DNA from: an uncultured Bacteroidota bacterium
GTDB taxonomy: Bacteria > Bacteroidota > Bacteroidia > Bacteroidales > P3
Direction of reading: 5' to 3'
NCBI GenBank assembly: GCA_902774845.1
Contig: CACYJU010000006.1
Location: 124,001-188,000, forward strand
DNA: 64,000 bases
Part shown: in pieces, positions 1,561 to 61,497 of the stretch
Layout of the letters: every line of letters starts with the position of its first letter
How positions within the stretch are numbered: position 1 is the stretch's first letter
Position numbers and translations under genes: made by a program
Notes under the pieces: generated by a model
Told to the model about the DNA's origin: nothing
Seen by the model: the letters and a program-made list of their open reading frames with translations, nothing else
Database searches by the model: none

Positions 1561-2827
1561 ATCCTACAACCACCTCTACCAGTTCCTGCTTATCATATAC
1601 CCTTTCTGCAAGAAGTTTCAGTTTTTCGGGCGTTGCAGTCTTAAGGGCATTGAAGAAGTTTGTAGTAAATCGTTCGTCGATCTGGACGTCAAGCATATTG
1701 TAGAAACGTTCGGAACGCTCGAATATACCATCGATAGAACGTAGGAAGTCGCCAGCCATATAGTTGCATACCAGATTCAGTTCATCCAAAGAGATGGGCT
1801 CTTGCCTCAGTATGTCAAGTTCATGATATATCTCCTTCAACGCAGGTTCAGCATACTCCGATGCGACGTCACTTGTTATATAGAACACACTGCTGCCGCG
1901 CACCATGTTGGACATCGAGTAGATGCCATAGGTGTAGCCCTTCTCCTCCCTTATGTTGGTCATCAAGCGAGAACCAAAATAGCCACCCAACACTGTGTTG
2001 AGTATCATGAACATGGGATAGTCGGGATCATCCCAACTCATGGGTAAAATACGCCCTAATCGAAGGGTGGTTTGAACAGAAGATGGGATGGAATGCCTGA
2101 TTGCTTGATTGCCTGAATGCTTGAGTGCTTGAGTGCCTGTGTAACTTGACGACGTATTGATTGCGGTTGAAGAAGAGAAACAGGTGTCAACCAGTTTCAG
2201 TATTTCGTCGTCATAGTTGCCCGCCAGAACCAAGGTAGCGTCGGCAAGCTTAAATCGCTCACTTGCATAGCCACGCACATCGTCCAACGTCAACCTCTGC
2301 ACATCGTCAGGTTTGGCATAAACGCCTTCCGGATGATCCTTTCCATAGACAGCCTCGTAGAAGAGATTGCGAGCGACGACAGCAGTCTTCAGTTCGCCAC
2401 TAAGGAGTGCCTGCCAACGTTTAGACATCAAGACCTCAAACTCATTCTGACCAAAGAAAGGATGAGAAAGCAGGTCACTCAATACCGGATAGACCTCAGC
2501 TGCATATTTTTTCAACACATAGACCGACAGCTTCACAGTCGAAGAAGAGGCCTGACGATCCATAGCCACACCCAGTCGGTCAAAAAGCTCAGCCACCTTT
2601 TGAGCAGGGTTTCGTTCGGACGCCTCAAGCAGCATATCCCTCACAGCACCGACACAGAGCATCTTGGGTTGGTAGGCGCTGCCAGCGTTGAAGATAAAAT
2701 CAAGTTTCAATATGTCAACCGACTTTGACTGAAACAGGTATATCGTGTTTCCGCCCGAAAGAGTGCACCGTTGCGGTACCAAGCCTTTCAAGTCGTCATC
2801 GGAGGGTATCAGTCGCTTATCTATCAT
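1559..2827 (-). CDS. M16-family (insulinase-like) protein lacking the zinc motif
   Basis: This 422-aa protein has the M16 two-lobe plan. The N-terminal lobe includes LDFIFNAGSAYQPK and the C-terminal lobe includes GGYFGSRLMTNIREEKGYTYGIYS, a classic M16 signature. The zinc motif HxxEH should fall at residues 60-70, but that stretch reads GAVRDMLLEAS, so both histidines are missing. I infer a non-catalytic partner or scaffold, as in M16B pairs. No signal peptide is seen. The ATG directly abuts the TAA of the upstream TonB receptor gene (2828-2830), which suggests translational coupling. Residues around 225-250 are a low-complexity insertion encoded by six 8-bp units at 2094-2141. Confidence 0.85.
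   Translation of the reverse strand: MIDKRLIPSDDDLKGLVPQRCTLSGGNTIYLFQSKSVDILKLDFIFNAGSAYQPKMLCVGAVRDMLLEASERNPAQKVAELFDRLGVAMDRQASSSTVKLSVYVLKKYAAEVYPVLSDLLSHPFFGQNEFEVLMSKRWQALLSGELKTAVVARNLFYEAVYGKDHPEGVYAKPDDVQRLTLDDVRGYASERFKLADATLVLAGNYDDEILKLVDTCFSSSTAINTSSSYTGTQALKHSGNQAIRHSIPSSVQTTLRLGRILPMSWDDPDYPMFMILNTVLGGYFGSRLMTNIREEKGYTYGIYSMSNMVRGSSVFYITSDVASEYAEPALKEIYHELDILRQEPISLDELNLVCNYMAGDFLRSIDGIFERSERFYNMLDVQIDERFTTNFFNALKTATPEKLKLLAERVYDKQELVEVVVG
2094..2141. repeat. octamer word array inside the M16-like gene (6 units)
   Basis: There are six contiguous 8-bp units of consensus TGCYTGAN. On the coding (minus) strand they read as a hydrophilic SGNQAIRHS-type peptide. Six units is 48 bp, so the frame is kept. 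Confidence 0.9.
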
Positions 2828-5308
2828 TTAAAAGGTTATCGTCACTTTCACGTTAAACTGTCGAGCTGTAAGGTAGTTGGGCACAGGATAATAGATATTC
2901 TCGTAGTCGGCCACCCACAGGTATGAGACCACATTGTGGTAGTTGAACAAGTTGAAGACATCCACCCCAATCATCACATCGTCGACAACGCGGAAGAACT
3001 TGGTGTTGGCCAGCTTCTTGAAGCGGGAAAGCTGTACTGAGTTGCCCCAGTCGACACGGAAGTAGGTAGGCAAACGGAAGTCAGAACTACGGTCGGTCTG
3101 ATAGGGGAAGGTTACGGGCAATCCCGTACCGACAATAAGACTGAGGCTCATACGCCACCATGGAATCTTGGGTATGTAATCCTGCAAGAAAGTCTTGAAG
3201 GAGAATATCTGGTCGGTGGGGCGAGGTTGCCAGCCGTAGCCGTCGCCTTTGATGTTTTCACGCGTCTGCATCAACGATATGCTGGCCCACGACTCAAGAC
3301 CTTCGACAAACTCACCGTTCAACCTCATGCTCATACCCACCGCATAACCCTCAGCGTTGTTGTCGCCGGTGTAGCGTATGCGAAGGTTGTCGATACTGTA
3401 GGGAATCAGGTTGTCCACATATTTGGCATAGACGTCGGTGGTCAGGCGGAAAGGCTTTTTGAACAACTTGAAGTTCCAATCTATCGACTCCACAATCTGA
3501 TACGAGCGTTGTGCATGTACGTTAGGATTGAGCGTGCCGTCGGTGCGGCGCATCTCACGGTAGAAGGGTGCCTGCTGATAGACGCCGGCGGTGGTACGGA
3601 ACCGCAGGTCGGTCTTGATGTTGGGCTTGAAGGCGAAACTCACCCTGGGAGAAACAAAAGCCTGATTGTTTGAATGCTTGATTGCCTGATTGCTTGAGTT
3701 ATTTAGTGCATCTGATTCGATCCACATGTGATAGTACTGGAAACGGGTGCCGACGACCAACTGAAGGTCGGTGCCCCGGTCGGTTATCCAGTTAAAATCG
3801 CGCTGAAGGAATGCGGTGGTTCTCAGAGTGTAGACGTTGTTGTGTGCCTTGCTGTAGAATTGTAATATCGGATTATACGGCTGATTGAGGCTGTCGCCTG
3901 GGGTCTCGTAGGTGGTTGGCATAGAGAATCCCGCTGAATCCACCCACTTCCACTCGTTGATGCGGTCGTCTGTCGACTCAAACTGTGCTTTCGCGCCCCA
4001 GCGCCAGTTGCCCAGCTTGGCATAGTGTGTTCCACGCACTTCGGTGCTGTAGATGCCCGTACGCAGATAGTTGCGAGCATGTTCGAGGAAGGTGCCCACA
4101 CCGCGGTCGAACTTGTCCACCTGACCCATCTGCGAACCGAGAGCGAGCTCATAGAGCCAGTATTGATCTTGTATATCATACAGTTCAGCCTCATCGTTGC
4201 TCTGCACCGAGGTTATCCATTTCAGGTTAAAGTTGTCGTTAGGATGGTAATCTACCGAGAAGCTTCCGAGAAGCGTTGAGTACTTGTCCGTCTCCTGCCC
4301 GTCGAAGTAGATGTCCAGCTCCATCGAGTGCATGAAGTTGCCGAAGGTGGTGGTCTGGCTTTCCGGAATGAGGCCGTAGCGGTTGCGCGTCCAGATGGCG
4401 AGCAGCGAGAGGTCGACCTTGTCGTTCACTCGGTAGCCCATCAGCGCCTGAATGTCGGTATAGGCGGTGGAGTAGTGACCTTTGGTGTCAAGCGAACTGA
4501 AAAGGTAGCGGTTGCTGTGATAGCGGAACCCTACGTTATACCAGAAGTTTTTTATAGTGCCCTGAGCCCAAGCCGCCCCACCCAAGAGCGAGCCAGAGAG
4601 CTTGGCGTGGAATTCTGAAGGGCGCTTGTATTTTATGTCCAGCACCGACGACATCTTGTCGCCATAGACAGACTCAAAGCCACCAGGCGAGAAGGTCAGG
4701 TGGTCCACCATGTCCGCGTTGATGATGCTCATACCCTCCTGCTGACCGCTGTGCACCAGCTGAGGACGGAACACCTCCACATCGTTGATGTACACCAGAT
4801 TCTCATCAAAAGAGCCACCACGAACCGAGTATTGAGAAGAGAGCTCGTTGTTCGACGCCACATCAGGCAGGGTCTTCAGCACGCTCTCGACCCCCTCGTT
4901 GGGCCCTGCGATATTCTCTATGTCCGCGAGGTTGATATGAGTGTAGTTGCCCGTCGACGAGCGTTCGCCCACCACATCCACCTGGTTCAGCTGGCTCGAC
5001 TGCTCGCGAAGGGTGACATTCACAGAACGCCCCTTCTTCCCTATCGGAGCGAGAGTGAGAGAACTATCCTGATAGCCCATCAGCTGGAAAGTAAGACGGA
5101 TGGAATCTTTTTCTGATACCGAGAGCGACCAGAGTCCCCTTCTGTCCGTACGAGTAGAAGCCGAGCCGTTCTGCCAGCGAGCGACGACCGTCACAAACTC
5201 CAGGTCGGAGCCAGCCGATGTCACACGCCCCTCCAGCCGAGCCTGCCCCCAACCCAGAGAGGCCAGAAGCAGCAAGAACAGGAAGATTATGTATCGTTTA
5301 GTCAGCAA
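2828..5308 (-). CDS. TonB-dependent outer-membrane receptor with carboxypeptidase-regulatory-like domain
   Basis: The protein is 826 aa. A signal peptide (residues 1-21, ending GWGQA) is followed by a CarboxypepD_reg-like beta domain (about 22-105: ARLEGRVTSAGSDLEFVTV). The plug domain follows at about 120-230 (VLKTLPDVASNNELSSQYSVRGG, then NVYINDVEVFRP-type text), and then a long beta-barrel ending in aromatic ITF. This is the usual Bacteroidota TonB receptor plan. No SusD gene is adjacent, so the substrate is unknown. An octamer word array at 3660-3699 inserts a SSNQAIKHSNNQAF-type stretch into the barrel near residue 540, presumably in a surface loop. The stop codon abuts the start of the M16-like gene. 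Confidence 0.9.
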   Translation of the reverse strand: MLTKRYIIFLFLLLLASLGWGQARLEGRVTSAGSDLEFVTVVARWQNGSASTRTDRRGLWSLSVSEKDSIRLTFQLMGYQDSSLTLAPIGKKGRSVNVTLREQSSQLNQVDVVGERSSTGNYTHINLADIENIAGPNEGVESVLKTLPDVASNNELSSQYSVRGGSFDENLVYINDVEVFRPQLVHSGQQEGMSIINADMVDHLTFSPGGFESVYGDKMSSVLDIKYKRPSEFHAKLSGSLLGGAAWAQGTIKNFWYNVGFRYHSNRYLFSSLDTKGHYSTAYTDIQALMGYRVNDKVDLSLLAIWTRNRYGLIPESQTTTFGNFMHSMELDIYFDGQETDKYSTLLGSFSVDYHPNDNFNLKWITSVQSNDEAELYDIQDQYWLYELALGSQMGQVDKFDRGVGTFLEHARNYLRTGIYSTEVRGTHYAKLGNWRWGAKAQFESTDDRINEWKWVDSAGFSMPTTYETPGDSLNQPYNPILQFYSKAHNNVYTLRTTAFLQRDFNWITDRGTDLQLVVGTRFQYYHMWIESDALNNSSNQAIKHSNNQAFVSPRVSFAFKPNIKTDLRFRTTAGVYQQAPFYREMRRTDGTLNPNVHAQRSYQIVESIDWNFKLFKKPFRLTTDVYAKYVDNLIPYSIDNLRIRYTGDNNAEGYAVGMSMRLNGEFVEGLESWASISLMQTRENIKGDGYGWQPRPTDQIFSFKTFLQDYIPKIPWWRMSLSLIVGTGLPVTFPYQTDRSSDFRLPTYFRVDWGNSVQLSRFKKLANTKFFRVVDDVMIGVDVFNLFNYHNVVSYLWVADYENIYYPVPNYLTARQFNVKVTITF
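3660..3699. repeat. octamer word array inside the TonB receptor gene (5 units)
   Basis: There are five 8-bp units (GCCTGATT, GTTTGAAT, GCTTGATT, GCCTGATT, GCTTGAGT). They are translated on the minus strand as Asn/Gln/Ser/His-rich residues between conserved barrel strands. Confidence 0.9.
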
Positions 5309-5459: not shown

Positions 5460-8400
5460 TTATCGGGCGATGGTAAGCTTGCCGCCATTACCGTTGGCTC
5501 GGAACTCAGGTGCATAGAGACATTGGATGGTTGTAGCCGGGAGGGTGAAGCTTCCGGTATTGGTGACGAAGATGTCGTATTCGAGGATGTATTTACCCTT
5601 GTCGAGACGGTCGATATAGAAGTTGTTGGAGGCGTTGAGTACGGATGCATAGTACGAAAGGCCACTGTTCCAATGCCAGCCGCTGGCGGAGGATACGGAT
5701 TCGAAGCAGGCGGGTCGGCCGTCTTTGAGTTCCACATACTCGAGGTTGCGGTCGCAGTCGAAAAGTATACGTATGCGTACTCGGTCACCCACTTTCAATT
5801 TTGATTTTACAGGGTTAAGAATAGCTTCGAGGGTGCCGTCGGTCTTGACTTTGTATAAGGTCTTCTGGAGTTTGACGCCCATTTCGTTGCGCTCGATCTT
5901 ATCCATATCATCGAGGAACTGGTAGTAAGCTGCGCCCCAAGCGATGCCGTCGGTGAGTTTGGTGATGGTGATTGCTTGATTGCCTGACTGTCTGATTGCC
6001 TGATTGCTGGATTGCTGGATATCTGGACGCTTGGCTAACAACTGAGTAATCTCATCGCCAAACCACGACTGCGACTGATAGCCCGTGCCTGCTTGTGCGG
6101 GCGAGTTGAGAGGCTGACCTGCAACTGTGACCCGACAAGGGACGGTGTCGAGTTTTATCGAGGTGGCGTTGGAGGAAGAGATGAGAGCGTTGACGGCCTC
6201 GACGGTGGAGATATCGGTATCCCAACGGGTGGTTTGCTTCTGCTTGAGGAGCCATTGCTGCATCTGTCCTATAGATTCCTTGTCGTCGGGGGTTATCTCG
6301 GAGAAGGCCTGGATGATGAGAGCCTGAGTTTCTATCGGGCGTTCGTACCACCACCAGCTGGCGGTGTTGTCGCGCCAATACATACCCATCTCGTCGCTAT
6401 GGAGTGCGCTCTCCTTGATACGTCGGATGATGTCGAGAGCCTCCTTGCGGTTGCCGGCACGATGGAAGATGAGTGCCAGCTGAGCTCTAGTGCGGAGCGA
6501 CTTGTATTCTTTATAGTGCTTGAGTGTGTTGCGGAAGAAATAATCGTAGGACTCTTGAAATTTTGAATTCTGGATTTTGAAATTTGAGTTGTAGAAGCTA
6601 CGCATATAGAGGTAGTCGATATTGAGAGCCTCGAAGTCGGTCTTCTTTAGGTAACGCTGGTAGTAGTCGTAGTTCTCTTTGTCCACGAAAGCGAGAGCTT
6701 TCTTTATTGCTTGAGTGCGTGCTATCGGCTTTGCCACTTGGCTCGACCAAGATTGTGTAAATATGTTAGATCCGAGTCGCTGGAGGATATACTGAGTGGT
6801 GTAGAGGCTGGAGTAGCGACAGCCGGAAATCCAGCTCCATCCGCCGTCGGAGCGCTGGTCGTCAAAGAGCTTCTTCTCGGCACGCTTGAGTTGAGACGAG
6901 AGTTTCGAGTGGTTGAAATACTCTGCGATACGGTGCATCTGCTGGGTCTCGCCGACGCCATCACGGAGCCAGGGGGTCTCGTCGAGTACGGTTTGCTTGA
7001 CATCTTCGTTCTTCTCAAGCTGCGATATCAACGGATTGACGGTATCTTTGACCCATTGGTTGAAGACGGTTTCGATGCTGGGATTGTCTTTGACGATATT
7101 GAAGGCGAGGGTGTTTGTGTAGAGCTGGTTGACGAGGTAGATATTGGAGGGATCTTGCCGCTCTTCGAGGTAAGGGAGCGCCTGGATGGCGTACCATATC
7201 GGGTTGGAGGTAAACTCAACCTTCAAGAGGTGGGGCCGACGTGTGCTGACTGCTGACTGCTGACTGCTGATTGCCGGCAGATCATAACTCTTCTCGCCTT
7301 TGCCGTTGATGTACATCGCCTGGCTGACGGTAACCATCTGCTTGTTTGAGAGGACGGGCAGACAATCCTGCTCGCCGTCGCCATGGTGACGACCTTGGGC
7401 AATGATGCGGTAATTGGCGACATAAATGTTGTCAGGAACGGCAATGCGGAAAGAGACTTGCTCGCTGGCGTGAGCGGGGACGGTGATTTTGAGCTTTGAA
7501 CTTTGAACTTTGAACTTTGAATCAGCGGCATCGGTGAGTTCGAAAGTCACGGTGACCTCCTGCTGCTCGTCGGTGAGGTTCATCACCTTTGCGAGGAAGT
7601 CGAGGGTGTCGCCATGACGGAGGAAACGTGGAGCATTGGGCTGCACCATCAGCTCCTTCTGTGTTATGAGCGACTTGGCTATCGAGCCGGTCTTCATGTC
7701 TTTGGTGTGGGCGAGACCCAGTATGCTCCACTCGGTGAGCAACTCTGGTACGGTGAAGGAATAGGATACGGAGCCGTCGTCACCAGTACGCAGGACGGGA
7801 GCGAAGAAAGCCAGAGTGTTGAGGTTGGTGCGGAGCTGAACTTCGTCATTGCCTGATTGCTCGGTTGCCTGAGTGCTTGATACTTCACTTTCTTCATCAA
7901 CTAAGGCAGTCTCGCTTTCGACGTTCGCCACCATAGCCACATCGTTCACCATTCCGTCCATATCAGCCCCCTTGGCCATAGCCACCTCCTCCACCTCGTA
8001 GACGACACCACCGCGACCTGAGAGTGCACGCGAGTTCTTGCGGTACATGATACGATGCCGAGAGAAGATGCCGTCGAGCAGACGCCAGGTGCTCACAGAG
8101 ACGTCTGTCACATATTTCAACTGCGGGCTTACCTGCCAGTCTTGAAGGTCGAAACGGAAGGTTGACCAATCGAGCATCGACGGATTGTAGTTGGTGCTCC
8201 AAGGAGAGAGAGACGCACTCAACCCACCATAGTTGTTCAAAGCGGCATCGTACATGGTCATCATAAGATTGGCGGCGACACCGCTGGAAATTGTGTTGTT
8301 TTGTGAATGTGTTAATGTGGTAGTGCCTGATTTGTTGGATTGAGTCTTCACTTTTATCGTCCAGGTTTCATTCTCGCCTGGCTGAAGTTTGTCACGGAAG

Positions 8401-11487: not shown

Positions 11488-13599
11488 CTAAAACGGCTGC
11501 CTCCAGTCGCAGCCGTTTTTCCACTCGGAGCAGCCGTAGGCAGTCTTGCCCTTTATGACGTGGCCTTTGCCGCACTTCGGACACACGTCGCCCTCCTTGA
11601 CTGACTCTTCCTTCTTCTTTCTGGTGCGTTTCTTCGACGTTTTCTCCTCACTACCAGCTACCTGCTGCCCACTACCCGCTACCCGCTTTTTTTGTGCTCT
11701 TTCCCCCTCGCCTTGAGGAGAGGGGGTCAGGGGGTGAGGCTTGCCCGCTGCCGACACCCTTCGGTTGCTGGTGTCGGTTATGACTTGCTGCACAATCTGA
11801 TAGACCATCGCCTTGAGCTCTTCGAGGAACTGTGAGGCCTCGTATTTATGAGCCTCAATGTCGCGGAGTTTCTTCTCCCACTGGCCCGTGAGCTCGGCGC
11901 TCTTGAGCAGCTCCTCGTGGATGATGCCGATGAGGTCAATGCCGGTAGGTGTGGCAGCGAGCGATTTGCGTTCCTTGCGGATATAGCCTCGCTTGAAGAG
12001 CGTCTCGATGATGGCAGCACGTGTCGAAGGGCGGCCTATGCCGTTCTCCTTGAGTGCATCGCGGAGCTCGTCGTTCTCGACGGTGCGTCCAGCGGTCTCC
12101 ATAGCCCTCAGGAGGGTCGCCTCGGTGTAGGGCTTGGGCGGCGTGGTCCACTTCTCTGCGAGGGTGGGCTCATGAGGGCCCTTCTCCCCTTTCTGGAAGT
12201 CGGGCAGGACCACAGTCTTGTCCGACTCGTCCGACTGTTCTGACGAGTCAGACTTCCCTCCAAAAACCGCTCGCCAGCCCTCCTCCAATATCTGCTTGCC
12301 CGAGGTCTTGAACTTGAGCTTCTCCACCTTGCCCGTGACGGTGGTGGTGGCGAACTTGCAGTCGGGATAGAAGACAGCGATAAAGCGGCGGGCGACGAGG
12401 TCGTAGACCTTCTTCTCATCGTAGGTGAGGTTGCCGTTGGATGGGTTGACGCCTGTCGGGATGATGGCGTGGTGGTCGGTCACCTTCGACGAGTCGAACA
12501 CCTTCTTGCTCTTGGGCAGCTTCTTACCCATGAGTGGCTGTATCTGTGCCGCGTAGGGCACCAGGCCCTGCAGTATCTGAGGACACTTCGGATAAATGTC
12601 GTCGCTCAGGTAGGTGGTGTCGACACGTGGGTAGGTGGTGAGCTTCTTCTCGTAGAGCGACTGGATGTGCTTCAGCGTGTTCTCGGCCGAGAAGGAGTAT
12701 TTCTTGTTGCACTCCACCTGGAGGCTCGTGAGGTCGAAAAGGCGCGGAGGTGCCTCCTTGCCCTCTTTCCTGGTGACGGAGGTCACCTCGAACTCCTTGT
12801 CCTTGATCGAGTCGAGGGCCGCCTGCCCCTCCTCCTGGCTCTTGATGCGGCCCGACTTCTTGTCTGACGTGTCCGACAAGTCCGACCCGTCCGACTCTTC
12901 TGCCGATTGCAGGTTGAAGAGGGTGTTGCGGTATATGGTCGAGAGCACCCAGTACTGCTCTGGTTTGAAGTTGTCGATCTCGAGCTGACGTTTGACTATC
13001 AGCGCCAGCGTGGGCGTCTGCACACGGCCGATGGAGAGCACCTGCCCCCCGATCTGGCGGTATTTGAGGGTGTAGAGTCGGGTGGCATTCATGCCCAGCA
13101 GCCAGTCGCCTATAGCCCTGCACAAGCCTGCCTCGTAGAGCGACTGATAGTCGTCCTGCGGCTTGAGCTTGGAGAAACCCTCCTTGATGGCCTCCTCGGT
13201 GAGGGAGGAGATCCAGAGCCGCTCGACGGGACATTTGACCTGAGCCTTCTGCATCACCCACCGCTGTATGAGCTCACCCTCCTGCCCGGCATCGCCACAG
13301 TTGACGATGCGCTCGGCGTTCTGCATAAGACGCTTGATGGTCTCAAACTGTTTCATGTAGCCGGCGTTCTCTATCAGCTTGATGCCGAACCGCTGAGGTA
13401 TCATCGGCAACACACCAAAAGACCACGGACCCCAGGCGTCGCAGTAGTCCTTAGGCTCCTTGAGGGTGCAGAGGTGGCCGAAGGTCCAGGTCACCTGATA
13501 GCCGTTGCCCTCCATATATCCGTCGTGCGCCGTCGTGGCGCCCAACACCTTCGCGATGTCGCGCCCCACACTCGGCTTCTCTGCTATACAAACAATCAT
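11488..13599 (-). CDS. topB: DNA topoisomerase III (type IA)
   Basis: The 703-aa type IA enzyme decatenates and relaxes DNA through a 5'-phosphotyrosine intermediate. It opens with the Toprim start IVCIAEKPSVGRDIAKVLG. Toprim acidic residues occur in NCGDAGQEGEL, and the active-site tyrosine in LTTYPRVDTTYLS. The tail has a zinc ribbon, CPKCGKGHV ... GCSEWKNGC. Three insertions are foreign to the family: two SDx-type acidic stretches from 9-bp words (12218-12253 and 12860-12904), and a PLTPSPQGEGE plus RVAGSGQQVAGSEE linker (11651-11738) before the zinc ribbon. It lies 78 bp downstream of prmA. Confidence 0.93.
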   Translation of the reverse strand: MIVCIAEKPSVGRDIAKVLGATTAHDGYMEGNGYQVTWTFGHLCTLKEPKDYCDAWGPWSFGVLPMIPQRFGIKLIENAGYMKQFETIKRLMQNAERIVNCGDAGQEGELIQRWVMQKAQVKCPVERLWISSLTEEAIKEGFSKLKPQDDYQSLYEAGLCRAIGDWLLGMNATRLYTLKYRQIGGQVLSIGRVQTPTLALIVKRQLEIDNFKPEQYWVLSTIYRNTLFNLQSAEESDGSDLSDTSDKKSGRIKSQEEGQAALDSIKDKEFEVTSVTRKEGKEAPPRLFDLTSLQVECNKKYSFSAENTLKHIQSLYEKKLTTYPRVDTTYLSDDIYPKCPQILQGLVPYAAQIQPLMGKKLPKSKKVFDSSKVTDHHAIIPTGVNPSNGNLTYDEKKVYDLVARRFIAVFYPDCKFATTTVTGKVEKLKFKTSGKQILEEGWRAVFGGKSDSSEQSDESDKTVVLPDFQKGEKGPHEPTLAEKWTTPPKPYTEATLLRAMETAGRTVENDELRDALKENGIGRPSTRAAIIETLFKRGYIRKERKSLAATPTGIDLIGIIHEELLKSAELTGQWEKKLRDIEAHKYEASQFLEELKAMVYQIVQQVITDTSNRRVSAAGKPHPLTPSPQGEGERAQKKRVAGSGQQVAGSEEKTSKKRTRKKKEESVKEGDVCPKCGKGHVIKGKTAYGCSEWKNGCDWRQPF
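11651..11738. repeat. low-complexity and GC-hairpin insertion in topB
   Basis: Degenerate CTACC(C)GC words (11651-11686) are followed by a GC-rich dyad, CCCCCTCGCC TTGA GGAGAGGGGG (11703-11726). A similar dyad stands alone at 26650-26670. The translated form PLTPSPQGEGE is a familiar signature of REP-like GC hairpins in coding regions. Confidence 0.7.
12218..12253. repeat. 9-bp word array in topB (4 units)
   Basis: TTGTCCGAC, TCGTCCGAC, TGTTCTGAC and GAGTCAGAC encode (SDx)n on the minus strand. Nine-base units never shift the frame. The same word fills the gyrB-pepE spacer. Confidence 0.85.
12860..12904. repeat. 9-bp word array in topB (5 units)
   Basis: Five 9-bp units around GTCCGAC encode EESDGSDLSDTSDKK in the linker before the active-site domain. 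Confidence 0.85.
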
Positions 13600-14514: not shown

Positions 14515-14720
14515 AGTATACAATTTATAATAAGACCGTAACAAAAACGCAGAGTCGGGGTTTTTATTGTAAAGTTAGAATGCGGAGCTTGTGCGGAGTT
14601 AGATGGGAGTTAGATGGGAGGGAAGATGTGAATAGTTAATAGTTAATAGATAAAATTTAATAGTTGATAGTGTAGTGGTGCATGGGAGGCAGGAGGAGTG
14701 ATTGGGTTTGATTGACGATG

Positions 14721-14842: not shown

Positions 14843-15007
14843 GTGTCAAAGTGTCAAAGTGTCAAAGTGTCAAGTGTCATTTTTAATTTTGGATGTGTCA
14901 TTTTGGCCACTATAATATAAAATAAATTTTATATTATAGTGACGTGTTTGACATTGGAAAACGAGTTTGACACTTTGACACTTTGACACTTTGACACCTT
15001 GACACTC
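14843..15007. repeat. inverted GTGTCAAA word arrays flanking a perfect palindrome
   Basis: GTGTCAAA units run from 14843 to 14880. Their reverse complement, TTTGACAC units, runs from 14966 to 15007. Between them, 14908-14941 is a perfect inverted repeat with 16-bp arms (CACTATAATATAAAAT) and an AA centre. The whole could fold as a cruciform or long hairpin. No coding capacity or transposase is seen. Confidence 0.88.
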
Positions 15008-15160: not shown

Positions 15161-15346
15161 CAACGTCATCAGATGGGAGATGGAAGATGTAAGATGTAGG
15201 ATGTAAGATGTGAGTTGTAAGTTGCTCAACGATTGACACAGCTGAAGCCATTTTTTTATTATTTTGAAAATTCTTTGTACTTTTGCAGTCAAGTCACAGG
15301 ACAAAAAACGTTAACGTTAACCATAACCACAACCATTCGGAAATAA

Positions 15347-16384: not shown

Positions 16385-16390
16385 GTGATT

Positions 16391-16462
16391 GCTTGAATGC
16401 TTGATTGCTTGATTGCATGATTGCTTTATTGCTTGATTGCATGATTGCTTGAATGCTTGATT
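16391..16462 (+). repeat. octamer word array in the spacer before mtaB (9 units)
   Basis: Nine contiguous 8-bp units of consensus GCTTGATT (variants GCATGATT, GCTTTATT, GCTTGAAT) fill the 102-bp spacer between the MORN-type gene and mtaB. Confidence 0.92.
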
Positions 16463-16486
16463 GATTGAATACATTAATTTGACAGT

Positions 16487-21548: not shown

Positions 21549-21615
21549 GGGGTAAGAGAATTGTGAATTATGAATTATGAATTTTGAATGGTGAATGCTG
21601 AATGGTGACTGCTGG
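21549..21615 (-). repeat. word array filling the argS-thioesterase spacer
   Basis: Read on the minus strand, the spacer is a chain of degenerate 7-10-bp words (CAGTCACC, ATTCAGC, ATTCACC, ATTCAAA, ATTCATA, ATTCATA, ATTCACA). It runs from just after the argS stop to just before the ATG. Confidence 0.75.
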
Positions 21616-23406
21616 CTACATCCTCTCAGGCACCTCGATTCCGAGTATAGTCATAGTGTTGCGCAATGCCGTCGCCACCGTATCGCAGAGCACCACACGG
21701 AAGTTGCGCACCTCCTCGTTCTCCTCTCTCAGTATGGGTGTGTCCTGATAGAAGCTGTTGAACGCCTTAGCCAAATCGTAGGCGTAGTTCGCCACCATCG
21801 CCGGGCTCAGGCTCTGCGCCGCCTGTCCCACCGTCGACGGAAGAGTGTGCAGCAGCTTGATTATCTCGCGCTCCTTTGTTGATATGTTGATATGTTGATT
21901 GATTGATTGGTTGGTTGGTTCGCTTGTTTGTGCTTTGCGCACTATGCTGCGTATGCGGGCGTAGGTGTATTGAATGAACGGGCCTGTGTTGCCGTTGAAG
22001 TCGATACTCTCGGCGGGGTTGAAAAGCATATTCTTCGTCGGGTCAACCTTGAGAATGAAATACTTCAACGCACCGAGAGCCAAGATATGATACAAACGTT
22101 TGCGCTCGTCGTCGCTCAGCTCGTCGTTCTTGCCGTGTTCGAGGCTCATCTGCTCGGCGGTATTCTCCATATCGGCGATGAGGTCGTCGGCATCGACCAC
22201 CGTCCCTTCGCGCGATTTCATCTTGCCGTTGGGCAGTTCCACCATGCCGTACGAGAGGTGATACACCTTCTCCGCCCAGGGGAAGCCCAGCTTGCCCAAT
22301 ATCAGTTTCAAGACTTTGAAGTGATAGTCCTGCTCGTTGCCCACCACATAGACGAGACGGTCGGCATCGAAGTCGTTGTGGCGCAGAAGAGCAGTCCCGA
22401 GGTCTTGGGTCATGTAAACCGACGTTCCGTCCTTGCGCAGCAGCAGTTTCTCGTCGAGGCCGTCGCCCGTCAGGTCGCACCACACCGAGCCGTCGTCTCT
22501 CCTGTACAGAACCCCCATATCAAGGCCTTTCTGCACCAGCTCCTTCCCGAGCAGGTAGGTGTTCGACTCATAGTATATCTTGTCGAACCCTACTCCGAGC
22601 GAGCGGTAGGTCTCGTCAAATCCAGCATACACCCAGCCGTTCATCTTCTCCCACAGGTCGCGCACCTCTTTGTCGCCCTCTTCCCAGCGTTTCAGCATCG
22701 ACTGCGCCTCTTTCATCAGCGGAGCCTCTTTCTTGGCTTCTTCCTCATCCATGCCTTTCGCCACGAGGTCGGCTATCTCGGCTTTGTAATGCTTGTCAAA
22801 TTCCACATAGTATTTTCCCACCAGGTGGTCGCCCTTCATGCCAGACGATTCGGGTGTCTCGCCGCCACCGAAGCGCATCCATGCCAGCATCGACTTGCAG
22901 ATGTGGATGCCACGGTCGTTCACCAGGTTCACACGCTTCACGTTTTGCCCGTCGGCTTTCAGCAACTCGCTTACCGACCAACCCAGGAGGTTGTTGCGTA
23001 TATGTCCTAGATGGAGCGGCTTGTTGGTGTTGGGCGACGAATACTCTATCACCACAGGCTTGGCGTCGGCAGGCACAGCCTTCAATCCGAACCCATCGTT
23101 ACCCGATATGTCATTCACGAAATTCACCCAGTAGTTGTCGGCTATCGAGATGTTGAGGAATCCCTTGACCACGTTGAAATCGGCAACCTCAGGCAGATTA
23201 GCCTTCAGTTGCACGCCAATCTCGTTAGCTACAGCCTCCGGCGCTTTGCGGGCCTGCTTCACGAATGGGAATACGACCAGCGTAAAATCGCCTGCGAACT
23301 CTTTTTTAGTTCCCTGCAGTTGAACTTGCGACGGTTCGACGGAGATAGAATACAAATTGTCAAGAGCCTGACTTATACCCTGTTGTAACAATGTCTCGAT
23401 ATTCAT
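21616..23406 (-). CDS. argS: arginyl-tRNA synthetase
   Basis: From ATG 23404-23406 (MNIETLLQQGISQALDNLY) the enzyme is 596 aa. A longer reading frame upstream has no family residues and crosses the promoter. It is a class I synthetase with the HIGH-type motif SSPNTNKPLHLGHIRNN and the KMSKS-equivalent KMKSREG. The N-terminal additional domain and C-terminal DALR anticodon domain are both present. A TSEPTNQSINQHINIS insertion before the anticodon domain comes from a word array at 21886-21930. It is divergent from the pyrophosphatase gene. Confidence 0.95.
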   Translation of the reverse strand: MNIETLLQQGISQALDNLYSISVEPSQVQLQGTKKEFAGDFTLVVFPFVKQARKAPEAVANEIGVQLKANLPEVADFNVVKGFLNISIADNYWVNFVNDISGNDGFGLKAVPADAKPVVIEYSSPNTNKPLHLGHIRNNLLGWSVSELLKADGQNVKRVNLVNDRGIHICKSMLAWMRFGGGETPESSGMKGDHLVGKYYVEFDKHYKAEIADLVAKGMDEEEAKKEAPLMKEAQSMLKRWEEGDKEVRDLWEKMNGWVYAGFDETYRSLGVGFDKIYYESNTYLLGKELVQKGLDMGVLYRRDDGSVWCDLTGDGLDEKLLLRKDGTSVYMTQDLGTALLRHNDFDADRLVYVVGNEQDYHFKVLKLILGKLGFPWAEKVYHLSYGMVELPNGKMKSREGTVVDADDLIADMENTAEQMSLEHGKNDELSDDERKRLYHILALGALKYFILKVDPTKNMLFNPAESIDFNGNTGPFIQYTYARIRSIVRKAQTSEPTNQSINQHINISTKEREIIKLLHTLPSTVGQAAQSLSPAMVANYAYDLAKAFNSFYQDTPILREENEEVRNFRVVLCDTVATALRNTMTILGIEVPERM

Positions 23407-26002: not shown

Positions 26003-26334
26003 TGTTGTCTGTGGTACGTGTCATAGTTGTCGATGTTTTTTAAGTTGCTGTTTTGCTTTGTCTTCTCTGTCTTGCTTTTGTCTTCAATCCACGAGCAAAA
26101 ATACAGCGATGTTATTTATCACTCCTAAAAAGATATTTATGATAAACAACTTACTCCCAAAAAACATCCAACCATCACCATTCAACACACAGCATACCCC
26201 ATCTCAACCGCGCCCGCCCACTAACGCATTAACACATTCACAAATTCACACATCAACACATTCCCTCCCACTTAACTCCCATATAACTCCCATCTAACTC
26301 CGCATTTAAAATTACCAACTCGTGATGAAAAAAT
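26003..26334. other. left part of the hppA-DUF3667 spacer: ATTCACA and 11-bp words
   Basis: I see no gene here. Around 26227-26263 there are ATTAACACATTCACA-type words. At 26265-26303 three 11-bp units (CTCCCACTTAA, CTCCCATATAA, CTCCCATCTAA) follow. These are the reverse complement of the words at 14592-14620. Confidence 0.75.
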
Positions 26335-26795
26335 CTTGGTCAACTGGTCAACCCGCTTGCTTTTGCAGATTTTTTGTTGTTCAAATCTGTAAATGATATA
26401 GTTATGGTTCTTGGTCAACGGTCAACTGGTCAATTCACTTGTTTTTGCAAAAAAGGGTGTTCGATCAAACCTATAATTAATTAAAATAAAAAAAATACAT
26501 TATATATAATAATATATTAAATTATTAATTATTAATCACTTACATGACAATTCTCCGTAACCTGCTGATTTTGGAAAACGAAAAACATTGCAGTTGACCA
26601 GTTGACCGTTGACCAACCCCCTAATATGCTCTGCCTGAACAATAGTCTCCCCCTCTCTACGGGAGAGGGGACTGGAAAATAAAAAAACTTTTTTCTTGGT
26701 CAACGGTCAACTGGTCAATTCACTTGTTTTGCAGAAAATCATTTTGTTCAACCTGTAAATGACATAGTTATAAGCCTTGATCAACGGTAAACTAG
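26335..26795. repeat. GGTCAAC word repeats, direct and inverted
   Basis: Units of about 75-81 bp start with CTTGGTCAAC words and run through GTAAATGATATAGTTAT (26335-26409; 26695-26775). A degenerate unit starts at 26410 and a last partial one at 26776. A 23-bp GGTCAAC block at 26411-26433 recurs directly at 26696-26718 and in reverse complement at 26594-26616. A GC hairpin (CCCCTCTC TACGG GAGAGGGG) lies at 26650-26670. The last unit runs into the stop codon of the DUF3667 gene. Confidence 0.88.
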
Positions 26796-28321: not shown

Positions 28322-28370
28322 ATTAACTATTAACTAAACTATTATCTATTATCTATCAACTATTATCTAT
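28322..28370. repeat. CTATTA-type word array between luxS and the FGE-like gene
   Basis: TTAACTA, TTATCTA and ATCTATCAACTA words fill the 55-bp spacer. The TAG stop of the FGE-like gene (28367-28369) lies within the array. Confidence 0.7.
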
Positions 28371-29176
28371 TCACACACTACCCGGAAGCCCAGGTTGTAG
28401 GCTTTGTATTCGGGGTCGAGGCCGTAGCGGAACGAGAGACGGCAATGTGATGCCACTTTGTTCCAGCTGCCGCCGCGGTCAACATGTTTCGTGCCCTCCG
28501 AAGGCCCTTCGGGGTCGGTGACGGGGTCGCTGCCGAAGTCGTCGTTCCACCAGTCACGGCACCACTCCCACACGTTGCCGGTCATATCATACAATCCGAG
28601 TGCGTTAGGCTTCAATGTCGCCACCTCGTGGGTTGTCTCTTCTGCGTTGCCCATATACCAGCCCACCTCGTCGAGGTTGGCGCTGCCCGCAAAGACGGTC
28701 GGCTCGGCAGGAGCCTTGTGTCCGCCACGTGCCGCATATTCCCATTGCGCTTCGGTGGGCAGGGTGAAGGTGCGACCAGTCATCTCCGAAAGCCTACGGC
28801 AGAACTCCATGGCGTCGTTGTAGGAGACGGTCTCTACAGGATAGCTGCCGCCGTTGGCGAAGCCGCTGGGGCTCTCCCCCATCACAGCCTCATAGAGAGC
28901 CTGCGTCACCTCCGTCTCGCCTATAAAAAAGTCTTGCGAGATAGTCACCTCATGCACACGCTCGAAGGCGGCGCGGTCATACTTGCCCTCTATCTCCCAG
29001 TCGCCCTGGGGGAAGGCCGCCTGCTCGGGGGTGCAACCCATAGTGAAGGTGCCGGCTTTCACGCGCACCATATCAAACGAGACGTCGCCGACGGTGACGG
29101 TAAACTTTTCCTTTGCCCCACCGCAGGAGACCAGAAGGAGCGACGCCAGTATTGGATAAAAGAATCGTTTTAGCAT
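28367..29176 (-). CDS. formylglycine-generating-enzyme-like (SUMF1) lipoprotein
   Basis: From ATG 29174-29176 the protein is 269 aa, starting with a lipoprotein signal (ASLLLVSCGG, lipidated Cys near 18). The body is a FGE-sulfatase domain: GTFTMGCTPEQ, EVTQALYEAVMG, TLPTEAQWEYAARGG, GNVWEWCRDWW and DRGGSWNKVASHCRLSFR. In true FGE two cysteines near the end bind copper. Only one is evident here, so I infer a non-modifying family member. A longer start (29236) would overlap the small lipoprotein gene upstream and remove the signal from the N-terminus. Confidence 0.85.
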   Translation of the reverse strand: MLKRFFYPILASLLLVSCGGAKEKFTVTVGDVSFDMVRVKAGTFTMGCTPEQAAFPQGDWEIEGKYDRAAFERVHEVTISQDFFIGETEVTQALYEAVMGESPSGFANGGSYPVETVSYNDAMEFCRRLSEMTGRTFTLPTEAQWEYAARGGHKAPAEPTVFAGSANLDEVGWYMGNAEETTHEVATLKPNALGLYDMTGNVWEWCRDWWNDDFGSDPVTDPEGPSEGTKHVDRGGSWNKVASHCRLSFRYGLDPEYKAYNLGFRVVCE

Positions 29177-30162: not shown

Positions 30163-30269
30163 TTAAAGACAAGAAAAACAAAAAAGGACAAAACACATTG
30201 GTTAAAAAACAGAAAGGACAAGATACTGACGCTTAGATTATTGTCTTTCTTGTCCTTTCTTGTCTTTAA
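30163..30269. repeat. inverted AAGGACAAG/AAAGACAAG word arrays
   Basis: TTAAAGACAAG (30163-30173) pairs with CTTGTCTTTAA (30259-30269), and AGAAAGGACAAGA (30211-30223) pairs perfectly with TCTTGTCCTTTCT (30248-30260). This is a nested hairpin made from a repeated word, between the Met gamma-lyase-like gene and elbB. Confidence 0.82.
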
Positions 30270-31764: not shown

Positions 31765-31808
31765 CATTAGGGAGTCATTAGGGTGTCATTAGGGAGGTAT
31801 TAGGGAGG
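31765..31808 (+). repeat. 11-bp word array CATTAGGGAGT (4 units)
   Basis: CATTAGGGAGT, CATTAGGGTGT, CATTAGGGAGG and TATTAGGGAGG are contiguous. Confidence 0.92.
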
Positions 31809-31875
31809 TTCATGCTTTTAAGGATAACAGAAGGAGCTTTTCGGATGGGTCTTGATGGCTTGCTGGATGCAATAT

Positions 31876-31941
31876 AGATGGAAGGCAGATGGGAGGCAGG
31901 TGGAAGTCAGATGAGAGTCAGATGGGAGTCAGATGGGAGTC
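31876..31941 (+). repeat. 11-bp word array AGATGGGAGTC (6 units)
   Basis: Six contiguous 11-bp units from AGATGGAAGGC to AGATGGGAGTC. The same word family occurs at 14592-14620 and, inverted, at 26265-26303. Confidence 0.92.
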
Positions 31942-32027
31942 AGATCGAACAGCTGTGGGTTGACAGTTGAGGTTATATGATTTGAGCCATGAGGATTGAT
32001 TGCAAATAAAATCTTTTTTCAGTTGAG

Positions 32028-35818: not shown

Positions 35819-35975
35819 AGATAGCCGACGGTCAAATGTATTTGCTTTTCACCTCCACGAAAGGTGCCATTCACCGTGGATGGTAATCTCGGAGTCCTCG
35901 TTGATGGGGAAAAAACTTATCGCCCACAATAAAAACAGAATATTTCGTTATTGTACTTAAATATCGGTATAAATA

Positions 35976-36076
35976 AATCGAGTCTATAGAAGCAATTATT
36001 ACTAGGTTATTCATCAATCAGGAAGGCAACTGTTATAGATTGCCTAGTAATTATTAACAAAAAAAACGACTCGATT
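35976..36076 (+). promoter_or_regulatory. structured 5' leader of the OMP gene
   Basis: Nested inverted repeats end exactly at the start codon. The outer stem is AATCGAGTC (35976-35984) with GACTCGATT (36068-36076). The middle stem is ATTACTAGG (35998-36006) with CCTAGTAAT (36043-36051), extended by three pairs past a T-T mismatch. The inner stem is CAATC (36015-36019) with GATTG (36038-36042). The ATG at 36077 follows the outer stem directly. An RNA switch or thermosensor is possible but unproven. Confidence 0.6.
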
Positions 36077-38332: not shown

Positions 38333-38336
38333 TTGT

Positions 38337-38399
38337 GTGAATGCGTTAATGTGTTAATGTGTAAATGTGGGATTGATTGATTGCATGAATGCTTGAATT
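38337..38399 (+). repeat. mixed word array between the transglycosylase and FtsB-like genes
   Basis: GTTAATGT-type words (GCGTTAAT, GTGTTAAT, GTGTAAAT) grade into the octamer family (GATTGATT, GCATGAAT, GCTTGAAT) and end at the ATG. Confidence 0.8.
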
Positions 38400-38720: not shown

Positions 38721-39566
38721 TTACTGTATCACAGAAAGCAGCAGCTGGGCTTGCTCAAGGTCGGGCTTGATGTCGAGGGCACGACCGAGAGAGACTTTAG
38801 CCTTGTCGGGCTGGCTGTTCTGATATTGGCATTTACCCAAGAGGTAGTATGACCAAGCATCATCGGGAGTGAGCCGGACGGCCTTCGAGAGGCAGTCGAT
38901 AGCACCTTTGAGATTGGCGAGAGCCATATAGCTCTCCGCCATAGACTTTAGCGCTTCAGGATAGAGAGGAAAGCAACGCAGAGCCTGCCCATAATACTCC
39001 ACCGCCTGAGGGTGTTGTGAGCGCGAGCGGGCAATCTCACCCAGGAAAAACCAAGCACGCTGGAAGGAGGGGTCGTTGGCTATGACCGACTGGAAGCAAT
39101 GTTCCGCCTGAGCGGTATCGGACAGACGAAGGTAGCTCTCACCAAGACGACACCAGGCACCCACGAATCCCGGTCCGCCGAACTCGGTGGCACGACGCAG
39201 GTACTCTTCAGCACTCTTGTAGCTACCCTGATCGAAGAAAATGGTTCCTAGGATGAAATAGACATCCTTGCACTTACGGTCCTTCTCGATGACCGTCTGA
39301 CACAGGTCTATAGCCTGCCGGACACTATCCTGCTTATAGAGAGCGGCAGCAAGACGCCAGCCGGCTTCGACATTTTGAGGGTCAATACTGAGCGCCTGCC
39401 TGTAGCATACGGAAGAGCTGTCGTAGCGGTTGGAACTGTCGTACCCCATACCACGGGCGACCCAATCGTCGGCAGAGGACTGAGCAAAAGAGGAAACACA
39501 GAAGAAAAGTGCGAATATGAATGCGGTGGCTCTTGATTGCCTGAATGCTTGAATGCTTGAATGCAT
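38721..39566 (-). CDS. exported TPR protein whose start lies in an octamer array
   Basis: This 281-aa protein has six to seven TPR units (YRQALSIDPQNVEAGWRLAAALY, EEYLRRATEFGGPGFVGAW, VEYYGQALRCFPLYPEAL). The hydrophobic signal core FIFALFFCVSSFAQ is preceded by MHSSIQAFRQSRAT. Those first residues, including the ATG (39564-39566), are encoded by the octamer word array at 39531-39570, and no other start precedes the signal core. Role unknown. TPR proteins scaffold envelope complexes. Confidence 0.82.
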   Translation of the reverse strand: MHSSIQAFRQSRATAFIFALFFCVSSFAQSSADDWVARGMGYDSSNRYDSSSVCYRQALSIDPQNVEAGWRLAAALYKQDSVRQAIDLCQTVIEKDRKCKDVYFILGTIFFDQGSYKSAEEYLRRATEFGGPGFVGAWCRLGESYLRLSDTAQAEHCFQSVIANDPSFQRAWFFLGEIARSRSQHPQAVEYYGQALRCFPLYPEALKSMAESYMALANLKGAIDCLSKAVRLTPDDAWSYYLLGKCQYQNSQPDKAKVSLGRALDIKPDLEQAQLLLSVIQ

Positions 39567-39570
39567 GAGC
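39531..39570. repeat. octamer word array containing a start codon
   Basis: Units TCTTGATT, GCCTGAAT, GCTTGAAT, GCTTGAAT and GCATGAGC. The minus-strand ATG of the TPR gene is the CAT of the last unit. Confidence 0.88.
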
Positions 39571-39907
39571 GTTTGAGTTTATAATTATATTAGTGAGTTT
39601 TTGTTATATAACTTAATAAATGTAAAATTGTTGTGCGAGAGCGAACGTAATGTCAAGCTCGCTTGAGGATTGCTGAGCCGAAGCCAACAATGACTCCAAA
39701 GAAGTCAATTGTTGTGCGAGAGCTGAGCCGAAGCCAACAATGACTCCGAAGGAGACAACTGTTATGCGAAAAAAAAGATGAGTTTTTGGAGGTTATATTT
39801 ATTTTTTGTTACTTTGCAAGGTGCGTCTGGTTTTGTGTTTTAATGGTTAGACTTTGAATTATAAGTTTTTAAATAAGATTGATACAATAAATAATATATA
39901 TATACAC
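39571..39907. other. spacer upstream of topA with 50-bp tandem repeat
   Basis: I see no gene here. A 26-bp block beginning GCTGAGCCGAAGCC occurs identically at 39672-39697 and 39722-39747 (period 50). Both copies are followed by similar AAGTCAATTGTTGTGCG text, and a partial unit precedes them from 39627. The topA promoter follows. Confidence 0.8.
39785..39816 (+). promoter_or_regulatory. promoter of the topA operon
   Basis: TTTG (39785-39788), 20 nt, TTACTTTG (39809-39816) followed by CAAGG. It is 91 bp before the ATG. Confidence 0.65.
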
Positions 39908-60587: not shown

Positions 60588-60601
60588 CAATCAACCCCAA
60601 C

Positions 60602-60646
60602 GTCCGACAAGTCCGACAAGTCCGACAAGTCCGACCCGTCCGACAA
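60602..60646 (+). repeat. 9-bp word array in the gyrB-pepE spacer (5 units)
   Basis: GTCCGACAA x3, GTCCGACCC and GTCCGACAA are contiguous. The same word is translated inside topB (12218-12253 and 12860-12904). Confidence 0.92.
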
Positions 60647-60668
60647 ACCCGAAAAAAACACAACCATA

Positions 60669-61418: not shown

Positions 61419-61497
61419 GTGCGTGCCCGCACAGGGCAATAATCAGATTGTTTCATATCACAATCAGAAAAAAACATTTGTCTAATCACTAATCACC
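61419..61497 (+). repeat. 78-bp repeated leader, copy B (includes hairpin repeat at 61419-61437)
   Basis: Starts one base after the pepE stop with the 19-bp hairpin repeat, then AATAATCAGATTGTTTCA, an A-rich CATTTGTC stretch and TCACTAATCACC just before the DUF805 ATG. It is near-identical to copy A (52794 down to 52717). Confidence 0.9.

Follow-up and report, generated by a model that had tools for sequence, protein, structure and literature searches.

How does one short word come to stand in tandem arrays at many unlinked places of a bacterial genome, inside conserved genes as well as between them? This question is raised by a 64,000-nucleotide stretch of an uncultured Bacteroidales bacterium, referred to here as the window (G000:C6:124001-188000), whose own genome (G000) is a 2.38 Mb draft of 32 contigs. 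Judged by one protein, the nearest named relatives are uncultured Bacteroidales, of which many come from the gut of ruminants. In spacers and protein loops, tandem word families of 7, 8, 9, and 11 bases appear to arise, disappear, and replace one another, by whole units in the family studied best, and we tentatively propose replication-linked copying, with template switching at short matches, as the most likely cause. The arrays keep to a limited set of periods, their words recur at unlinked loci, two families follow a grammar of kept and free letters, arrays of one of them (the GTC family) change length by whole units, and words are replaced at orthologous spacers and in frame within genes.

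The analysis was based on an own sample of 445 kb, comprising the window and 20 further stretches (approximately 19% of the own genome). As several of the 20 stretches were picked at GTCCGACAA sites, this sample is biased toward the 9-mer family. Open reading frames (ORFs) were called greedily, longest first; the call is rough, and 90% of the own sample was called coding. The close relative G064 was used for orthology comparisons; 985 of 4,700 fourfold sites differ between it and the own genome (21%; the table takes in a few wrongly called frames, and rates vary among loci).

Short tandem words are abundant in the window and across the genome

Tandem Repeats Finder reported 88 rows in the window. 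A preliminary description, made from the letters alone, had claimed degenerate tandem words of 7, 8, 9, and 11 bases, and these are real: its words are among the 88 rows, as 8-mers of GCYTGAWT type (2094, 3663, 5969, 16386, and 39532), the 7-mers TGCTGAC (7244) and TTTGAAC (7488), GTCCGACAA (12871 and 60602), AGATGGGAGTC (31876), CATTAGGGAGT (31765), and GTGTCAAA/TTTGACAC (14843/14966). GGTCAAC-type words were located at 26337, 26412, 26591, and 26697, AAGGACAAG in the spacer at 30163-30269, and CTATTA-type words at 28322. When rows with a score of at least 40 were merged, the window held 36 arrays, whereas 30 local dinucleotide shuffles gave 1.83 on average and never more than 5; arrays of periods 7-11 numbered 24, compared with 0.43 on average and at most 2 in the shuffles. 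In the own sample, 225 arrays were found, including 31 of period 7, 35 of period 8, 23 of period 9, 3 of period 10, 23 of period 11, and 22 of period 12.

The enrichment extends over the whole genome, the point on which the preliminary description had staked its claim. Two tandem copies of GTCCGACAA with at most three mismatches occur at 117 own-genome sites, compared with 6 for the reversed control, and three copies of TGANTGCN with at most one mismatch occur at 389 overlapping sites, compared with 2 for the control. That the arrays are an assembly artefact of short-read metagenome bins is scarcely credible. Assemblers typically fail at repeats, and this genome is a draft of 32 contigs; nevertheless, the arrays are mostly shorter than 100 bases, lie in frame within genes, and are found at orthologous places elsewhere with clean flanks.

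The arrays favor periods of 7, 8, 9, and 11 bases

The period spectrum was determined by counting 6-base matches at distance p per 10,000 spacer positions (43,885 positions in the own sample). Own spacers gave 101.7 matches at p = 7, 70.0 at 8, 48.8 at 9, and 104.4 at 11, compared with 9.3, 5.0, and 10.0 at p = 4, 5, and 6, and 12.5, 15.7, and 7.1 at p = 10, 12, and 13. Period 11 thus equals period 7 in strength, and periods 8 and 9 reach approximately 70% and 50% of it. Multiples of 7, 8, 9, and 11 were likewise well over background; period 10 was not. At p = 7, 8, 9, 10, and 11, the values were 247, 47.2, 23.2, 9.9, and 17.4 in G064; 123.8, 142.9, 28.6, 15.2, and 49.5 in the pooled congeners G036, G035, and G020; and 48.8, 20.6, 4.0, 11.2, and 68.5 in a pool of other congeners. 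Across these congener sets, periods 7 and 8 are high, 11 is high in two of three sets, 9 is weaker or absent, and 10 stays near background. The outgroup spectrum (18 named loci) is almost flat, with a maximum of 16.9 at p = 7.

Exact arrays of at least 2.4 copies were counted in own, G064, congener, and outgroup sets of 445, 134, 413, and 1385 kb (2.38 Mb in total), whose loci partly overlap. No exact period-10 array was found in any of these sets, and period-7 arrays numbered 43, 29, 48, and 27, respectively; Tandem Repeats Finder reported three imperfect period-10 arrays in the own sample. Period 6 was rejected as part of a genus-specific set, with 16, 4, 14, and 34 exact sites in the same order. 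By the rough ORF call, 19 of the 31 period-7 arrays of the own sample lie in spacers, 6 at edges, and 6 in frame.

The same words recur at unlinked loci

For periods 7, 8, 9, 11, and 12, the same exact word, in any rotation and on either strand, was shared by 9, 39, 28, 1, and 6 pairs of loci more than 2 kb apart, compared with means of 0.49, 0.23, 0.02, 0.00, and 0.00 in a null built from local surroundings. Three GTCNGAC units at 9-base spacing, with at most one mismatch, occur at 90 overlapping own-genome sites, and the reversed control at none. As the preliminary description had stated, a single word can be found in either orientation at numerous unrelated loci, and both the pair and the tandem-site counts put this far above chance.

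The GTCNGAC pattern was found in 17 of 36 congeners and in none of 24 genomes from other families; TGANTGCN in triplicate was found in 17 of 36 congeners and 2 of the 24 others. The two families are distributed differently, since G016 has 24 GTC and no TGA sites and G035 has 100 TGA and no GTC sites. In a draw from the phylum, only G000 and one other of 395 genomes had an exact GTCNGAC match; the sole congener in that draw was the own genome itself.

Spacer-to-spacer matches numbered 326. In 267 of them, the length is below 70 bases and arrays make up 81% on average; the other 59 are at least 70 bases long. The common ground between loci is therefore mostly the word and seldom a surrounding larger element. 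A larger mobile element as the carrier of the words was mostly rejected for this reason, although some dispersed elements of 100-150 bases do hold arrays.

Three inverted pairs like that at window 14843-15006 (listed below) were found among 112 arrays of the own sample, and relatives hold others (L165, L175, and L180). Long hairpins in which both arms consist of the same 11-mer array were seen in three congeners (L180 19836-19916, L175 10507-10560, and L165 17990-18085). A spacer of approximately 1 kb (L036 11602-12651) holds seven arrays of differing words, approximately 375 bases in total. One dispersed element of approximately 100-150 bases lies at window 36729-36877, L031 16976, L032 4547, L045 13653, and L048 9889; its copies are 78-85% identical, and it contains a short 12-mer array (TAATTATCCGTA). 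This element and the inverted pair at 14843-15006 are among the matches of at least 70 bases.

Two word families combine a fixed core with free letters

The two families in question are GTC-N-GAC-NN and TGA-N-TGC-N. In GTCNGACNN (40 GTC arrays, 190 units), conservation of the core is 96, 98, and 97% for G-T-C and 88, 97, and 96% for G-A-C, and that of the middle letter and the two linker letters is 46, 49, and 53%. Many of these 40 arrays are read on both strands of the palindromic word; 25 are distinct, two of them chance-like. In TGANTGCN (31 TGA arrays, 29 of them distinct, 139 units), the core is kept at 93, 91, 97, 97, 99, and 86% and the free letters at 50 and 74%. The 11-mer family lacks a crisp core, and no core is claimed for it.

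These counts were obtained at a tight threshold, which gave 40 GTC arrays compared with 3 to 30 for six scrambled words, 31 TGA arrays compared with 0 to 7, and 13 11-mer arrays compared with 1 to 8. As scrambled words reach 30, the GTC count is unclean, and the search that found 90 sites and no control match is the cleaner evidence. Looser thresholds were dropped: they gave 279 GTC arrays compared with 104 to 412 for scrambled words, 51 compared with 41 to 61 for the 11-mer, and 72 compared with 23 to 54 for TGA.

Identical neighboring units are at most slightly in excess, with 11 in the GTC family (mean 6.5, maximum 13 in 300 shuffles) and 13 in the TGA family (mean 9.2, maximum 18 in 300 shuffles). 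Such near-random neighbors and the pattern of core and free letters are not what would be expected if units duplicated locally and then decayed evenly. That the arrays reflect ordinary replication slippage in a slippage-prone lineage, with words that arise locally and are shared by coincidence or ancestry, is a strained and unlikely explanation. Consistent with slippage, gains come as whole units, some of them copies of a neighbor (L270/L280 and L219), the slight excess of identical neighbors has the expected sign, and near-perfect arrays exist, such as TTGAACT x 11.9 in L047, which looks like ordinary recent slippage; tandem 7-mers are also common in bacteria, as the available part of PMC6344855 reports. 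However, words of periods 7 to 9 recur approximately 18 to more than 1,000 times as often as in the local-background null, neighboring units of both families are hardly more alike than random ones, units of 4-6 bases stay near background in spacers, and orthologous sites carry different words. The earlier assertion that slippage is insufficient is supported for the two main families in that plain local slippage does not predict such neighbors, whereas some 7-mer arrays do resemble recent slippage.

The grammar also fits another explanation, in which each word family would be a set of tandem sites for its own sequence-specific DNA-binding protein, with the core selected and the letters between left free. 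We consider this possible but doubtful. The contrast between kept and free positions is what such sites would show, as is the near-randomness of neighbors; GTCNGAC is palindromic; and word families are patchy among congeners, as expected of accessory regulators. Similar tandem 7- and 8-mers in opposite-strand pairs are annotated as predicted global regulator sites in Geobacter metallireducens, according to the available text of PMC2700814.

Words and units differ between close species

Of the own-sample arrays, 137 have a period of at most 12, and 16 of these had a place between anchors in the fetched G064 sequence: 5 have the same word there, 4 face another array, and 7 face none. Without the four arrays that were placed in loci fetched for their G064 array, the numbers are 3, 3, and 6 (12 arrays). 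The spacers at 16386, 21558, 28322, and 30163 have other words in G064; 28322 is scored as none in this tally because the G064 words are just below the array threshold. The arrays of the window, with their G064 counterparts where placed, are listed below.

2094..2136: 8-mer array of TGCTTGAG type in the M16 peptidase frame, gene on the minus strand; similar-looking repeat peptides occur in the G036 and G035 linker, at peptide level.
3663..3697: 8-mer array TGATTGCT in the TonB-receptor frame, gene on the minus strand; G064 is 24 bases shorter and has no array, and G036 carries a 7-mer CAATTCT repeat at this site (L168 12098; peptide alignment).
5969..6027: 8-mer array TGATTGCC in the A2M frame, gene on the minus strand; G064 has the same word, differing in 6 of 11 free and 4 of 36 core letters.
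7244..7274: 7-mer array TGCTGAC in the A2M frame; G064 has the 8-mer TGATTGCC at that place.
7488..7521: 7-mer array TTTGAAC in the A2M frame; G064 has no array.
12220..12253: GTCNGACNN array of 4 units with one core mismatch in the TopB frame; in G064, the free letters are identical and one core letter differs.
12862..12895: GTCNGACNN array of 4 units in the TopB frame; in G064, the cores are kept and five free letters differ, and the array was not seen in the peptides of nine other aligned relatives.
14595..14671: spacer, 11-mer GGAGTTAGATG array followed by a 7-mer AATAGTT array.
14843..15006: inverted pair of 8-mer arrays GTGTCAAA/TTTGACAC flanking an AT-rich palindrome; in L046, a palindrome with a similar AT-rich center is flanked instead by 7-mer ATTAGTC/TGACTAA arrays.
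15171..15221: spacer, 7-mer array of AGATGTA type, directly preceded by a TAnnTTTG-like promoter motif.
16386..16468: spacer, 8-mer array TGATTGCT of 10 units; the G064 spacer is approximately 70 bases shorter and has AGGTCAC x 2 instead.
21558..21614: spacer, 7-mer array of GAATTGT type; G064 has AGTTTAA/AAAGG-type words.
21877..21920: 8-mer array TGTTGATA in the ArgS frame, gene on the minus strand; at these codons, G064 carries a short and degenerate array of 7-mers (TGAATTC/TGAATTT).
26222..26309: spacer, 8-mer TAACACAT array followed by an 11-mer CTCCCATATAA array.
26337..26718: spacer, GGTCAAC-type arrays in both orientations.
28322..28371: spacer, 7-mer array ATTAACT/TATCTAT; in G064, words of GTTGATAT type and TTTAAAAGG type stand there.
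30163..30269: spacer with a hairpin, both arms made up of AAGGACAAG-type words; the G064 spacer has a GTGAATA/TTCACTA hairpin instead.
31765..31945: spacer, 11-mer arrays CATTAGGGAGT and AGATGGGAGTC.
38334..38398: spacer, 8-mer arrays TGTGTTAA and TTGAATGC; G064 has no array above threshold.
39532..39576: 8-mer array CTTGAATG covering the start of the reading frame of a TPR protein, gene on the minus strand.
60602..60646: spacer after gyrB, 9-mer array GTCCGACAA of 5 units; G064 has one unit fewer, exactly 9 bases.

Of the in-frame arrays announced by the preliminary description, those in the M16, TonB-receptor, A2M, TopB, and ArgS reading frames were thus recovered. In the argS loop, both species read their arrays in frame, the own protein as RKAQTSEPTNQSINQHINISTKEREI and the G064 protein as RKSGQDVGFNIQNSEFKISDKEREI.

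The GTC family allowed units to be compared letter by letter. Between the own genome and G064 (five loci and six arrays, with the duplicate TopB row L225 excluded), 3 of 143 core positions and 22 of 60 free letters differ, compared with 490 of 6,636 flank positions (7.4%). Among G016, G020, and G026 (nine comparisons, with locus L275 used twice and the pair L282/L287 outside the total), the differences are 5 of 216, 26 of 90, and 1,692 of 20,489 (8.3%), respectively. Core conservation in the latter genomes is partly built in, because both sides were found by the core pattern; the free-letter excess is unaffected. Free letters change approximately four times as often as the flanks. Their excess over fourfold sites (48 of 150 compared with approximately 21%) is only moderate, because an alignment shift is possible; the excess over flanks is larger. 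Individual pairs vary. In L277/L285, the flanks differ by 4%, the free letters at 5 of 10 positions, and the core at 0 of 24; in L270/L280, L274/L284, and L281/L286, no aligned free letter differs. Linker letters change in pairs: across 14 paired arrays, neither letter changed in 26 cases, one in 8, and both in 8, compared with 21.4, 17.1, and 3.4 if the two were independent.

Length changes point to whole units. In eight displayed alignments of the GTC family, the gaps within arrays are exactly 9 bases. The gained units are copies of a neighbor in L270/L280 and L219 but not in L274/L284. In L227, a shifted alignment needs two inserted units and fewer letter changes, so whole-unit turnover may be partly alignment shift.

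Placement of the arrays and tests of function

Arrays cover 13.4% of co-directional, 7.3% of convergent, and 12.3% of divergent spacer, and 48 of the 106 spacers of at least 100 bases hold one. Along co-directional spacers, they are distributed evenly (20, 21, and 17 by thirds). In spacers between same-strand genes, TGANTGC showed no orientation bias (6 compared with 6, or 7 compared with 6 after the 16386 array was moved out of a false frame). Even placement without orientation bias fits arrays that would be placed regardless of function and retained where harmless. An RNA-level role was rejected, as TGANTGC has no orientation preference in spacers. The stop-free orientation of in-frame TGANTGC arrays, 15 of 15 of which avoid TGA, was also discarded as evidence, since an open frame by definition allows no other orientation and the 16386 array stands in a false one.

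These results bear on the possibility that the arrays are protein-binding sites. In favor of it, the core differs at only 3 of 143 positions between the own genome and G064 although 21% of fourfold sites differ. However, isolated GTCNGAC sites are not enriched in spacers, their 6 occurrences falling inside the range of 1 to 13 for palindromes of the same letters, position in co-directional spacers is flat, and TGANTGC has no orientation bias. Moreover, arrays occupy topB, argS, and A2M loops and in some cases have given way to different words; in the G064 comparison of the GTC family, reading frames contain at least four of the six arrays. The partial ascertainment of the core in the G016/G020/G026 pairs also speaks against reading its conservation as selection.

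Genes that might account for the words

That an enzyme of a mobile element writes the words, whether a RAYT-like transposase, a reverse transcriptase, or a telomerase-like or diversity-generating retroelement (DGR)-like enzyme, is decidedly improbable. Word families are patchy among congeners, inverted array pairs around an AT palindrome look element-like, and some dispersed elements of 100-150 bases exist. The gene searches argue otherwise. Y1_Tnp (PF01797) had no match in G000 or in the word-rich congeners G006, G016, G018, and G036; other word-rich genomes were positive. RVT_1 (PF00078) had no match in the word-rich genomes G002, G006, G016, G021, G026, and G036; G000 (one match), G020, and G035 were positive. 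Several word-rich congeners are only 72-85% complete, but three of the six without RVT_1 (G002, G021, and G026) are 94-98% complete. DGR change targets adenines. The conserved A within the GTCNGACNN core is unlike such change.

Loss of repair functions was likewise considered. SbcD had no match in G000, G002, G018, G021, or G035 and was above the cut-off in word-rich G006, G016, G020, G024, G026, and G036; loss of this hairpin nuclease was rejected as the cause because its presence does not associate with the words. Loss of the 5' nuclease domain of Pol I was rejected because the domain is present in G000.

Copying as a tentative explanation

Under the replication-linked explanation that we tentatively favor, copying at replication forks would be the cause, with switches of template at short matches taking words from one dispersed array to another. 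The core may be kept as the stretch that pairs when a unit is copied; a unit whose core is broken would then leave the exchange. The arrays would bring the host no benefit and be merely tolerated. A stronger version is possible, but we regard it with some reserve: a genome-wide copying process would grow words of 7, 8, 9, and 11 bases, but not 10, and move them between unlinked sites, with the core as a recognition or pairing element and the letters between rewritten, fast enough for close species to have differing words in the same spacer and the same argS loop.

Several results weigh against copying. The core is conserved as if selected, and a binding site explains this at least as simply. 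Nothing in the copying model predicts why period 10 is absent. The arrays are restricted to certain lineages, and no tested repair or mobile-element gene accounts for their distribution. Ordered blocks of units common to unlinked arrays are at chance level, with 13 two-unit blocks compared with 13.0 and 0 three-unit blocks compared with 0.4 among the 25 GTC arrays, and 38 compared with 31.9 and 1 compared with 1.4 among the 29 TGA arrays. Block copying between arrays was therefore rejected; no donor was found in approximately a fifth of the genome. Finally, some arrays are stable: 3 of the 12 unselected arrays keep their own word in G064, and free letters are unchanged in both species in the TopB array at 12220 and in L281/L286. 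The preliminary description had inferred an unfamiliar process that copies or grows words. In support of this, the word itself is mostly what the loci share, but a single process does not follow, as selection on binding sites could also keep the cores.

Relation to known tandem repeats

Short tandemly repeated repetitive (STRR) sequences are heptamers of cyanobacteria. REP and REPIN sequences are small dispersed repeats that form inverted pairs and are associated with RAYT transposases. They differ from the present arrays in architecture, and the present genome has no Y1_Tnp match. Rickettsia palindromic elements are single palindromes of 100-150 bases. They are likewise repeat DNA tolerated in frame, but are not word arrays.

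Arrays of this kind are not unheard of, because genome-wide tandem 7-mers are on record (PMC6344855, PMC4679880, PMC4692102, and PMC2700814, each in its available part). In the available text of PMC6344855, heptamers rank first in abundance among the short tandem repeats in spacers across a wide range of prokaryotes, and nothing points clearly to their function. TAACTGA repeats are described for Beggiatoaceae, cyanobacteria, and five Bacteroidetes; like STRR, they are tandem 7-mers that are mostly intergenic, have one word at many loci, are patchy among species, and have no known mechanism, and their spacer arrays are present in some relatives and absent in others (PMC4679880, as far as its available part goes). 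The present 7-mers also stand in tandem at many loci and are enriched in spacers (31 arrays, 19 in spacers, and 9 same-word pairs compared with 0.49). Unlike what that available part describes, they occur beside 8-, 9-, and 11-mers, two families have core and free letters, and some arrays lie in frame. TAACTGA, GGGAATC, GGGGATT, and GGGGACT gave no exact tandem site (at least 2.4 copies) in the own, G064, congener, and 80-locus outgroup sets; the last (L051-L130) contains at least two congeners (L064 and L066).

The quadruplex-forming heptamers GGGNATC of Xanthomonas and Nostoc are also genome-wide, enriched in spacers, and partly in inverted pairs. According to the accessible part of PMC4692102, 83% of them retain their gene context between two species and four units are preferred, whereas word turnover is frequent in the present arrays. 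GTGATTA, cited there for H. pylori, has 2 exact sites in the own set, 9 in G064, and 1 in congeners, a single match among dozens of words. The Geobacter metallireducens families GTTGCTYN, MTYCTGA, GGACCGG, and TWGTTGAY resemble the present ones as tandem 7- and 8-mers with free letters and opposite-strand pairs, one family also lying inside genes, but are called predicted regulator sites or RNA elements in what is available of PMC2700814. Repeats of 6-11 bases are strongly over-represented in a few archaeal genomes (PMC4060949, available part).

In the literature searched, no prior report of the 7/8/9/11 set, in-frame word swapping, or core-locked unit turnover was found, which is weak evidence because few subscription journals were covered. 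Tandem 7-mers are a known, unexplained bacterial feature; what seems to be new is the set of periods, the swapping of words, and the turnover of units. The genus offers a natural experiment, with many species, close pairs, hundreds of word sites, and at least two families whose core can be told apart from the free letters. With words that vary at a single site from one close species to the next, even in frame in housekeeping genes, the heptamer question becomes testable. If copying is indeed responsible, it would be a source of new protein loops and spacers outside standard slippage models.

Other observations in the window

A palindrome-like repeat of approximately 80 bases (16824-16901) lies in frame within an MtaB-like radical SAM gene. 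Copies with 88-94% identity are present on six other contigs of the own genome, and one lies in a G064 spacer; the G064 MtaB gene apparently has no insert. This repeat resembles Rickettsia palindromic elements. The MtaB-like gene (16482-17576) is only 74-78% identical to its G064 counterpart, compared with 92% for the next gene (17933-19326), as if one had been replaced. Between the same two conserved flanks, window 31566-37067 (approximately 5.5 kb) corresponds to approximately 245 bases in G064. The region that precedes the next gene holds, at 39672-39769, two tandem copies of a 50-base unit with 89% matches.

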